Positions 20,866-64,000 of a stretch of 64,000 bases of DNA are shown here, piece by piece. The stretch is from Dyella lipolytica. GTDB lineage: Bacteria; Pseudomonadota; Gammaproteobacteria; Xanthomonadales; Rhodanobacteraceae. Below the pieces are notes generated by a model. It was not told where the DNA came from. It ran no database searches and saw only the letters and a program-made list of their open reading frames with translations. The stretch spans positions 248,001 to 312,000 of the forward strand of contig NZ_BSNQ01000003.1 in assembly GCF_030160075.1 (NCBI RefSeq). Reading direction: 5' to 3'. Positions within the stretch are counted from its first letter, which is position 1, and every line of letters starts with the position of its first letter. The position numbers and the translations under genes are program-made.

Positions 20866-20896
20866 AAAAAAACGCCGGCATAAGCCGGCGTTTTTT
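20866..20896. terminator. Bidirectional intrinsic terminator
   Basis: ACGCCGGC and GCCGGCGT form an 8-bp stem around an ATAA loop. It is flanked by six A on the left and a T-run on the right, so it can terminate transcription in both directions. It lies between the converging hinT and Slp-lipoprotein genes. Confidence 0.93.
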
Positions 20897-55152: not shown

Positions 55153-55169
55153 GATCTTTCTTGGACAAG

Positions 55170-55193
55170 AAAGCCTCCTCGTGAGGCTTTTTT
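55170..55193 (+). terminator. Intrinsic terminator after tRNA-fMet
   Basis: AAAGCCTC pairs with GAGGCTTT around CTCGT, ending in six T. It lies 17 nt after the tRNA CCA and would separate tRNA from rimP transcripts unless antiterminated. Confidence 0.9.
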
Positions 55194-55292
55194 GTTGGGC
55201 GCAAGGATTGCGGTGCATTTTGTCTGGCTTTTTTTGCTATGACGGGTGCGCGGAAAGAGCCTGGAAGAGTCGGGACATCGGCGAGATAAGGG

Positions 55293-60330: not shown

Positions 60331-60339
60331 AAACCATCG

Positions 60340-60364
60340 AACCCTCTCCCGTCGGGAGAGGGTT
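60340..60364. repeat. REP-like hairpin after infB
   Basis: AACCCTCTCCC and GGGAGAGGGTT form a perfect 11-bp stem around GTC, the same core as the repeat after sdhB. A degenerate partner (TTTCCC/GGGAAA near 60431-60447) follows. There is no T-run, so it is more likely an extragenic repeat or mRNA-stabilising hairpin than a terminator. Confidence 0.65.
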
Positions 60365-60508
60365 CAGGTGTAGGGTTGATCTTGCCTCAGGCTTTATGAA
60401 AGGCGGAGCAAGCACTGCCCTCACTCATCGTCTTTCCCAGCGGGAAAATGGTGAGCAGGTCACCGTCGCTACGCGGTGTCGTATCGTTATCAAATAGGAG
60501 CGGCTGCC

Positions 60509-60910: not shown

Positions 60911-61852
60911 ATGAGTCGTCGTCGCCATCGTCCCGGTGCCCGTGACCTGCACGGCATCCTGTTGCTCGACAAGCCGCTGGGCATGAGCTCCAACAAGGGG
61001 CTGCAGATGGCGCTGGCCATCCTGCGCGCGGCCAAAGGCGGCCACACCGGCGCCCTCGATCCGCTCGCCACGGGCCTATTGCCGCTGTGCTTTGGCGAGG
61101 CGACCAAGATCGCCGGCAATCTCCTGGGATCGCGCAAGGCTTACGTTGCCGAATGCCGGCTCGGCGCCACCACCACGACCGCGGACCTCGAGGGCCAGAT
61201 CATCGACCAGCGACCGATACCGCCTCTGGATGATGCCGCGATCGAGGCTGCGCTCGCCGCTTTTCGCGGGCGCATTGTTCAGGTACCACCGGTGTATTCG
61301 GCCCTGAAACAGGACGGTGAGCCGCTTTACCTCAAGGCGCGCCGGGGCGAAGCCGTTCAGGCTCCGCCGCGCGAGGTCGAGATCGATCGGTTGGAACTCG
61401 TCTCGCGCACCGCGGACATCCTCACGCTGCACGTGGAATGCGGTTCCGGAACGTACATCCGCAGTCTGGCGGTCGATTTGGGCGAGCGATTGGGCTGTGG
61501 TGCACACGTGATCGCGCTGCGGCGACTATGGGTGGATCCATTCCGGGAGCCGGTAATGGTGAGCCTGGACCAGCTCCGCGAGGCGGCAGAGCAGGGCGAA
61601 GAGACGGTGGATCGGCTGGTATTGCCGCTTTCGGCAGGGGTGGCGGACCTTCCCGCGCTGCATTTCGACGCCGAATCCAGCCAGGCTGTCTCACAGGGCC
61701 GTCAGATCGACTGGCCCGCCGAGGCCCGGCATGAGCGATCCGCCGCATTCGGCAACGATGGGCGTCTACTGGCCCTGGTCGATTGCGATGAGCTGAACCG
61801 GGTACGCATTCTACGAGGCTTCAATCTGCCTATTTCACCCGTGGGGGCTTAA
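60911..61852 (+). CDS. truB: tRNA pseudouridine-55 synthase
   Basis: TruB makes pseudouridine 55 in the tRNA T loop. The 313-residue enzyme has the catalytic aspartate D50 in GGHTGALDPLATG, the conserved YVAECRLG and GTYIRSLAVDLGE segments, and a C-terminal PUA-like region. It lies 27 bp after rbfA. Confidence 0.97.
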   Translation: MSRRRHRPGARDLHGILLLDKPLGMSSNKGLQMALAILRAAKGGHTGALDPLATGLLPLCFGEATKIAGNLLGSRKAYVAECRLGATTTTADLEGQIIDQRPIPPLDDAAIEAALAAFRGRIVQVPPVYSALKQDGEPLYLKARRGEAVQAPPREVEIDRLELVSRTADILTLHVECGSGTYIRSLAVDLGERLGCGAHVIALRRLWVDPFREPVMVSLDQLREAAEQGEETVDRLVLPLSAGVADLPALHFDAESSQAVSQGRQIDWPAEARHERSAAFGNDGRLLALVDCDELNRVRILRGFNLPISPVGA

Positions 61853-61869: not shown

Positions 61870-61899
61870 TTGTTGCAATGCGGTCCGGCTCGGTACAAT
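61870..61899 (+). promoter_or_regulatory. Putative rpsO promoter
   Basis: TTGTTG (61870-61875) and TACAAT (61894-61899) are 18 bp apart. Start near 61906 would give a leader of about 100 nt that contains the long stem-loop below. An alternative -35, TTGCAA at 61873, gives only 15 bp spacing. Confidence 0.55.
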
Positions 61900-61932: not shown

Positions 61933-61978
61933 CGGAGCTTGCGCAACGTCACCGGGCGGTGACGTTGCGCAAGTTCCG
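61933..61978 (+). promoter_or_regulatory. Long stem-loop in the rpsO leader
   Basis: A 16-bp perfect stem (61938-61953 with 61958-61973) closed by GGGC extends to 21 bp with one G-T pair. It ends 26 nt before the rpsO ATG, and no T-run follows, so it is not a typical terminator. It may be an S15 autoregulation site or an RNase III processing site. Confidence 0.75.
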
Positions 61979-62004
61979 CACCCGCTTTTAAGGAAAAGTT
62001 ACCC

Positions 62005-62274
62005 ATGTCTCTCAACGCAGAACAGACCGGCAAGATCATTGCTGACTTCGGCCGCGTGCCGAACGATACCGGCTCGCCGGAAGTGCAGGTTGCCCTGCTT
62101 TCCGCCCGCATCGATCACCTCACCGATCATTTCAAGGCGCACAAGCAAGACCATCATTCCCGCCGTGGTTTGCTCAAGCTGGTCAACCAGCGCAAGCGCC
62201 TGCTCGGCTACTTGAAGGATCGCGATCTGGGCCGTTATCAGAGCCTGATTGAGCGCCTCGGCTTGCGCAGGTAA
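62005..62274 (+). CDS. rpsO: 30S ribosomal protein S15
   Basis: S15 (89 residues) binds the 16S central domain early in 30S assembly. The [16 protein letters not shown] and [19 protein letters not shown] helices are diagnostic, and the C-terminus ends in RLGLRR. An AAGGAAAAG site precedes the ATG. pnp follows, as in most proteobacteria. Confidence 0.98.
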
Positions 62275-62349: not shown

Positions 62350-64000
62350 GTGGCGAAAGTAACCAAGTCATTCCAGTACGGTAATCACGAAGTCACACTG
62401 GAGACGGGCGAAATCGCCCGGCAGGCATCCGGTGCAGTCATGGTCAGCATGGGCGGCACGGTGGTGCTCGTCACCGCGGTGGCCGCTTCCAAGGCGAAAG
62501 AGGGGCAGGATTTCTTTCCGCTCACCGTCGACTACGTCGAGAAGTTCTATTCCGCCGGCCGTATTCCGGGTGGTTTCTTCAAGCGTGAAGGACGTCCGAC
62601 CGAGAAGGAAACGCTCACGTCGCGCCTGATCGATCGCCCGGTTCGCCCGCTGTTCCCGGAAGAGTTCAAGAACGAAGTGCAGGTCATCGCGCAAGTCGTT
62701 TCGTTGAACCCCGAGATCGACGGCGACATCCTTGCCATGATCGGTGCTTCCGCCGCACTGTCGTTGGCCGGTATCCCGTTCAAGGGCCCGATCGGTGCCG
62801 CACGTGTCGGTTACGCCAACGGTAAGTACTTGCTTAACCCGACCGTTACCGAACTGAAGACTTCGGATCTCGACCTGGTTGTAGCCGGCACCACCAACGC
62901 CGTGTTGATGGTGGAATCTGAAGCCAAGCTACTTAGCGAAGAAGTGATGCTGGGCGCCGTGATGTTCGGCCACCAGCAGTTGCAGACCGTGATCCATGCG
63001 ATTGCCGAGCTGGCCACTGAAGCCGCTAAGCCGTCATGGGACTGGCAGCCGCCGGCCCGTAACGAGTCGTTGATTGCCGCCCTCAAGGGGGAAGTCGGCA
63101 ACAAGCTCGAAGAAGCTTTCCAGGTGCGCGACAAGCTGCAGCGCCGCGATGCCATCGCCGCGATCAAGTCAGATGTACTGGAATCGCTCAAGGGTCAGGC
63201 CGAGCAGAATGGTTGGGTGTCGGCCGAGCTCGCGAAAGAATTCGCTGAACTCGAATACCGCACCATGCGCGACAGCGTGCTGAAGTCGAAGATCCGCATC
63301 GACGGCCGCAAGCTGGACGACGTGCGTCCGATCACCGTGCGCGTCGGCGTGTTGCCGCGTACCCACGGTTCGGCGCTGTTCACCCGCGGCGAAACACAGG
63401 CGCTGGTCGTTGCTACGCTGGGCACCACGCGTGATGCGCAGATCATCGATGCGCCGGAAGGCGAGTCGAAGGATCCATTCCTGTTCCACTACAACTTCCC
63501 GCCGTTCTCGGTGGGTGAGGCCGGTCGCTTCGGTGCTCCCAAGCGCCGCGAGATCGGTCATGGCCGCCTCGCCAAGCGCGGCGTGCAGGCCGTCAAGCCG
63601 AGTATCGAAGAATTCCCGTACGTGCTGCGCGTGGTCTCCGAGATCACGGAGTCGAACGGCTCTTCGTCGATGGCATCGGTGTGCGGTTCCTCGCTGGCCA
63701 TGATGGACGCCGGCGTGCCGCTGAAGGCTCCGGTGGCCGGTATCGCCATGGGCCTGGTGAAGGAAGGCAGCGACTTCGTAGTGCTGTCCGACATCCTGGG
63801 CGACGAAGATCACCTCGGCGACATGGACTTCAAGGTAGCCGGTAGCGCCAATGGCGTGTCCGCGTTGCAGATGGACATCAAGATCGACGGCATCACCGAA
63901 GAGATCATGAAGGTGGCGTTGGAGCAGGCCAAGCGTGGTCGTCTGCACATCCTGGGCGAAATGGCCAAGGTGCTGAATACGCCGCGTTCTGAAATGAGTG
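62350..64000 (+). CDS. pnp: Polynucleotide phosphorylase (partial, 3' end beyond window)
   Basis: About 550 residues are present of a protein usually near 700. PNPase degrades RNA 3' to 5' with phosphate. The first RNase PH domain ([30 protein letters not shown]), the helical linker and the second RNase PH domain ([57 protein letters not shown]) are visible; the KH and S1 domains lie outside. The start is a GTG at 62350, with CAGGA about 13 bp upstream. Confidence 0.95.

Follow-up and report, generated by a model that had tools for sequence, protein, structure and literature searches.

The window, by which we mean the whole 64,000-nt stretch of DNA analyzed, carries a truB-like coding sequence that ends at 61852, upstream of rpsO, and rpsO is followed by pnp after a gap of 75 nt. 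The two genes are probably co-transcribed. The features of the region are as follows:

61870..61899, + strand: candidate rpsO promoter, read by eye, with TACAAT at 61894-61899, a weak -35 element TTGTTG at 61870-61875 and a spacer of 18
61933..61953, + strand: left arm of the hairpin, from sequence, fold and covariation
61954..61957, + strand: apical loop GGGC, which differs in length and sequence among relatives
61958..61978, + strand: right arm of the hairpin, from sequence, fold and covariation
61990..61994, + strand: Shine-Dalgarno sequence AAGGA, from sequence, outside the hairpin
62005..62274, + strand: rpsO, ribosomal protein S15, 89 aa, an open reading frame whose relatives were found as S15 loci
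62350..64000, + strand: pnp (PNPase), an open reading frame with relatives, GTG start, running off the window

As judged from its letters, 61870..61899 is a probable rpsO promoter; a generic promoter scan returned 0 sites there at its threshold. TACAAT lies 33 nt before the stem, and among 100 family leaders a -10-like hexamer was present upstream of the stem in 96, at 28-34 nt from it in 94, counts that had no random control. Because of this hexamer, the stem probably lies within the 5' UTR of rpsO, and perhaps of pnp, beginning about 25 nt after the transcription start.

The hairpin occupies 61933-61978 on the + strand and reads CGGAGCTTGCGCAACGTCACC-GGGC-GGTGACGTTGCGCAAGTTCCG. Its 21 pairs comprise 16 perfect ones (61938-61953 with 61958-61973), one G·T pair (61937/61974) and then four more, and 26 nt separate its end from the rpsO ATG at 62005. 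A preliminary description of this DNA had reported exactly this stem, loop and distance, and every element of it was recovered at these coordinates. It had also suggested folding the leader. The minimum-free-energy fold is one long hairpin, with no junction in the predicted structure. For the segment 61900-62030 the folding energy was -50.6 kcal/mol; shuffled versions averaged -31.96 (z = -5.12), and none of 200 was as stable. When the 64-kb window was scanned for hairpins, the rpsO hairpin ranked at the top of 16 hairpins scoring at least 11, with a score of 20.2, and the runner-up scored 14.1. Other strong hairpins in the window included two with T-rich tails and a terminator-like appearance, at 20867-20896 and 55164-55196, and one at 60339-60365, between infB and the next gene.

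To follow the hairpin in relatives, we collected rpsO leaders, with S15 located in 15 of the 16 genomes from the window's genus, 116 of 117 genomes in the family sample and 183 of 200 in the order sample. Leaders L001 and L002 (both at the place of L003), genomes G013 and G119 (no S15 match), G122, and L131 (contig end) were excluded, and four leaders without a tblastn match (L123, L127, L130 and L134) were read by coordinate. The nearest named records were mostly Dyella, Rhodanobacter and Frateuria, which places the window in the family Rhodanobacteraceae. An ungapped stem scoring at least 11 was present in 103 of 122 family leaders and in none of 366 shuffles, in which letters were shuffled singly and not as dinucleotides. 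Stem length was 21-24 bp in 91 of these 103 stems, the stem ended 20-30 nt before the ATG in 96, and loops ran from 3 to 9 nt. The preliminary description had held that absence from close relatives would speak against its proposal. The long stem was found in all 80 close-relative loci, mostly from Dyella and Rhodanobacter; it was exactly 21 or 22 bp long in 70 of them, with a loop of 4 nt in 57 and of 3 nt in 21. As a control on real sequence, 19 of 1037 other 100-nt windows from the same 80 loci reached a score of 11, the highest being 14.2. Among the 19 family leaders with no scored long stem, an interrupted or irregular one survives at least in L095 (20 bp) and, by eye, in L088, L158 and L160. 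One record titled Candidatus Eremiobacteraeota (L210, CAJCJD010000229.1) carries an S15 99% identical to that of the window and the same hairpin; its title is probably a mislabel, since in G015, a genome of the window's genus, S15 lies at matching coordinates of a contig.

Alignment of the leaders to look for compensatory changes had likewise been proposed at the outset, and such changes were found. In 46 leaders (45 distinct), 9 of 19 stem pairs showed changes on both sides. Paired cells made up 99.2%, as opposed to 93.0% for shuffles, and dropped to 22-43% once the partner was shifted by 1-3 columns. Further pair types were no more numerous than in shuffles (18 versus 16.7, with 100 of 500 shuffles as high). 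A tree-based null, run on 88 distinct leaders with an R-scape-like script of our own (60 null alignments, on an alignment, A2, that had been fitted to the model), gave 4 significant column pairs out of 6105, and all 4 were stem pairs. We regard covariation in the rpsO-leader stem as close to certain. G·U or U·G pairs outnumbered A·C or C·A by 101 to 15 in 63 distinct stems, although both kinds are penalized alike in the scoring, which indicates that selection acts on the RNA of the sense strand. Across Rhodanobacteraceae, selection maintains the hairpin as an RNA structure; because base-pairing persists while the letters change, this hairpin at the start of the rpsO mRNA is very probably a control element.

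With pairs numbered from the base over the 103 family stems, conservation of sequence was uneven along the helix. The base is conserved as GCGRRGCUUG paired with CAAGYYYCGC; pairs 3 (G-C) and 9 (U-A) were invariant in 103 of 103 stems, pair 8 was the same in 102, and pairs 5 and 6 retained a purine in the left arm. Compensated variation marks pairs 11-16, pairing is loose at 17-18 (83 and 87%), and pairs 19-22 are conserved again as CAUC with GGUG. The stem thus reads as two sequence-constrained blocks, base and top, around a drifting middle. We scored stems for a GU/GC step resembling the S15 site of 16S rRNA, using the geometry of that motif. The step was present in 38 of the 103 stems, spread over 11 genera, and in none of the 15 stems from the window's genus.

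We compared the leader with known and conceivable structures. At curated cut-offs, Rfam gave nothing at the rpsO leader. At a relaxed threshold the E. coli S15 pseudoknot family, RF00114, matched at 32.4 bits, below its cut-off of 39.5, and still at 28.5 bits from 61996 onward with the hairpin removed; this sub-cut-off match is driven mostly by coding sequence. An outer helix masking the Shine-Dalgarno sequence was rejected, as the flank duplex gave -7.9 kcal/mol in native leaders, -8.7 with swapped flanks and -9.0 with shuffled ones (100 of 103 stems; in the other 3 the stem ends more than 37 nt before the ATG). A pseudoknot formed by the loop was rejected as well: complementarity of at least 5 was found downstream in 42% of native versus 36% of swapped combinations, and upstream in 31% versus 29%. 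Of the 15 loops from the window's genus, 13 could pair over at least 5 consecutive positions with a CACCCG-like stretch that directly follows the stem. We discounted this because the loop sits 21 bp away from that stretch and the excess over swapped combinations in the 100 leaders is small.

The preliminary description had called the element potentially lineage-specific, and its distribution agrees. We searched with a covariance model, R1, that takes in the start of the coding sequence. In the window's own genome it matched only the two strands of the one palindrome (150 of 1970 candidates scored). Under the stricter filters it matched 73 of 299 genomes of the order, 70 of them in the family and 3, weakly, in the Xanthomonadaceae-like family f2, where the weak match in genome G270 lies away from rpsO. 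Under the same filters 6 of the tabulated family genomes had no match, and G045 gave an additional weak match at a place other than rpsO. Across 185 genomes of the class, the window's genome was the sole match. A leader from family f10 (L123) also matches the model, with E-values of 2.5e-5 on one strand and 8e-5 on the other, and three f10 leaders form hairpins of 29-32 bp with a base similar to that of the family stem. The element is therefore essentially, if not absolutely, confined to one family.

We also read 69 leaders from ten other families of the order. By eye, f2, f8, f10 and f12 each have a conserved leader of their own, often an irregular hairpin. Most of the f2 leaders L049, L050, L052, L055, L120, L129, L132, L136 and L152-L156 form an irregular hairpin containing a common GCGGUGCG ... 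CGUUCCUGC; this hairpin seems to hold a GU/GC-like step and could be another candidate S15 leader. Leaders of f8 (L121, L125 and L179-L196) have long irregular hairpins of up to 34 bp, with GGGGCU ... GGCUCU common by eye, and no long-hairpin fold was found in 10 of the 20. Those of f10 (L123, L197, L198, L200 and L202) likewise form long irregular hairpins in the rpsO leader, of 29-32 bp. Within Rhodanobacteraceae itself, a compact motif, GCGG.UCGCGCU...GGCUGA.CCGCGCCGUACG, replaces the long stem in 11 leaders from two genera (alignment A3: L083, L084, L105, L107, L112, L113, L114, L159, L162, L163 and L164). The gap between rpsO and pnp was 111-216 nt in all 10 compact-motif genomes in which it is known.

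Judging from sequence and position, we tentatively read the hairpin as a ribosomal-protein leader through which S15 quite possibly controls its own synthesis. When in excess over 16S rRNA, S15 would bind the hairpin, with its sequence-kept base and top; the hairpin, once bound and sitting some 25 nt ahead of the start codon, would hinder loading of the 30S subunit on rpsO and so lower the output of S15 and perhaps of PNPase. The element shares with S15 leaders its place in the inferred 5' UTR of rpsO and a conserved structure with covariation. Its steady distance from the start codon and the GU/GC step in 38 stems of 11 genera are in keeping with S15. The fixed pairs 3, 8 and 9 favor S15, as a stem recognized blindly to sequence would not need them, and the different structured-looking leaders at the same place in other branches of the order are as expected for S15 leaders. 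In the consulted parts of the literature, such leaders differ between lineages: those of Rhizobium, Geobacillus and Thermus, and predicted ones from Actinobacteria, Chlamydia, Flavobacteria and archaea, are lineage-restricted and have unrelated folds, as is the case here (PMC4137082, PMC4684408, PMC7247131). The E. coli rpsO leader (RF00114) resembles the Dyella one in being structured, at the same gene and the same place near the ribosome binding site; its two helices, however, form a pseudoknot that includes the start region, whereas Dyella has one long hairpin outside the Shine-Dalgarno sequence. Failure to find Shine-Dalgarno masking, a pseudoknot or, in the genus, the GU/GC step counts against the simplest S15 model. 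As far as those same sources go, the other S15 leaders with data mimic the three-way junction of 16S rRNA, its GU/GC motif or both, while here there is no junction and the GU/GC step is confined to the 38 stems. That many of the stems are almost perfect duplexes without a three-way junction would make them an unusual S15 target, which speaks against the S15 reading. If S15 does recognize a nearly perfect hairpin of 21-22 bp with no junction, pseudoknot or GU/GC step, this would be a new, minimal form of S15 feedback that has replaced other leader folds within one order, a proposition that we consider doubtful.

The same duplex could instead be a target of RNase III, an explanation that we hold to be possible but rather unlikely on what the sequences offer. 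Bound or cut at a 21-24 bp duplex heading the rpsO-pnp mRNA, the operon would have its stability or translation set by RNase III, linking the level of PNPase, and of S15, to that enzyme. This would give the head of the operon the role that the stem between rpsO and pnp has in E. coli. RNase III needs about 20 bp of duplex, a requirement for which no statement was found in the review cited below, and the stems provide it, being near-perfect over 21-24 bp, or two helical turns, in the 91 stems counted above, with variable loops. In the parts of one review consulted, bacterial RNase III targets show little conservation in their loops, and RNase III controls rpsO-pnp or pnp in E. coli and several other bacteria (PMC8708148). 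The E. coli stem, as described there, is likewise a double-stranded element in the messenger of this gene pair (PMC8708148). It lies between rpsO and pnp, whereas the long stem of the family lies before rpsO, and the known rpsO-pnp sites of RNase III are placed after rpsO. A gap of at most 30 nt, too short for a separate pnp leader, was found in 61 of 96 long-stem genomes versus 4 of 18 in which no long stem was scored; among these 4, L088 and L158 have the interrupted stem seen by eye. Hairpins predicted in the gaps of 49 family loci (L003-L048, L053, L054 and L056) measure up to 16 bp, apart from a 20-bp one in L044. For a relocation of the E. coli pnp stem to the head of the operon, the gap association is suggestive only: the gap exceeds 30 nt in 35 of the 96 long-stem genomes, and the association comes from raw counts over few independent branches. 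The fixed letters at pairs 3, 8 and 9, and conservation at both ends of the stem, also weigh against a purely sequence-blind RNase III model. It is unlikely that the hairpin is a general mRNA element with no dedicated ligand, acting as a shield from 5'-end-dependent decay or as a boundary for ribosome landing. The flank before the stem is G-poor and single-stranded in appearance by column counts, and the stem keeps its fixed distance from the -10-like hexamer, as such an element might; yet a 5' shield is usually placed at the very 5' end, and here the stem should be preceded by about 25 nt, while the occurrence at one rpsO locus per genome and the conservation at both stem ends suggest a role specific to rpsO. 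Far less probable than either is a palindrome that works as DNA, be it a transcription-factor site, a terminator of truB or a mobile repeat. The palindrome is strong, and the 10-mer CTTGCGCAAC has 50 genomic copies, whereas its reversed control has 23. A DNA operator is nevertheless rejected by the preference for G·U over A·C, and the probable promoter precedes the stem. An intrinsic terminator is rejected too: as first described, no T-run follows the stem directly, with TTTT beginning only 7 nt past it (61986-61989), T is the commonest base only from the 7th nucleotide after the stem in 100 leaders, and a terminator scan was silent at the site. The preliminary description had allowed that the palindrome might prove to be scattered over many loci; BLAST and, among the 150 candidates scored, the covariance model found no second copy in the genome, and a mobile repeat was rejected.

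Leaders of rpsO are a textbook case in which one protein is served by unrelated RNA folds across lineages. Our search of the open-access literature found no paper on this leader, and it may have been described elsewhere. The hairpin adds a well-supported, family-wide rpsO leader fold unlike those in the papers and Rfam families compared. As sister groups carry other types of leader, leader replacement could be studied inside a single order, and the family offers a clean test case for S15 versus RNase III as the controller of the rpsO-pnp operon.
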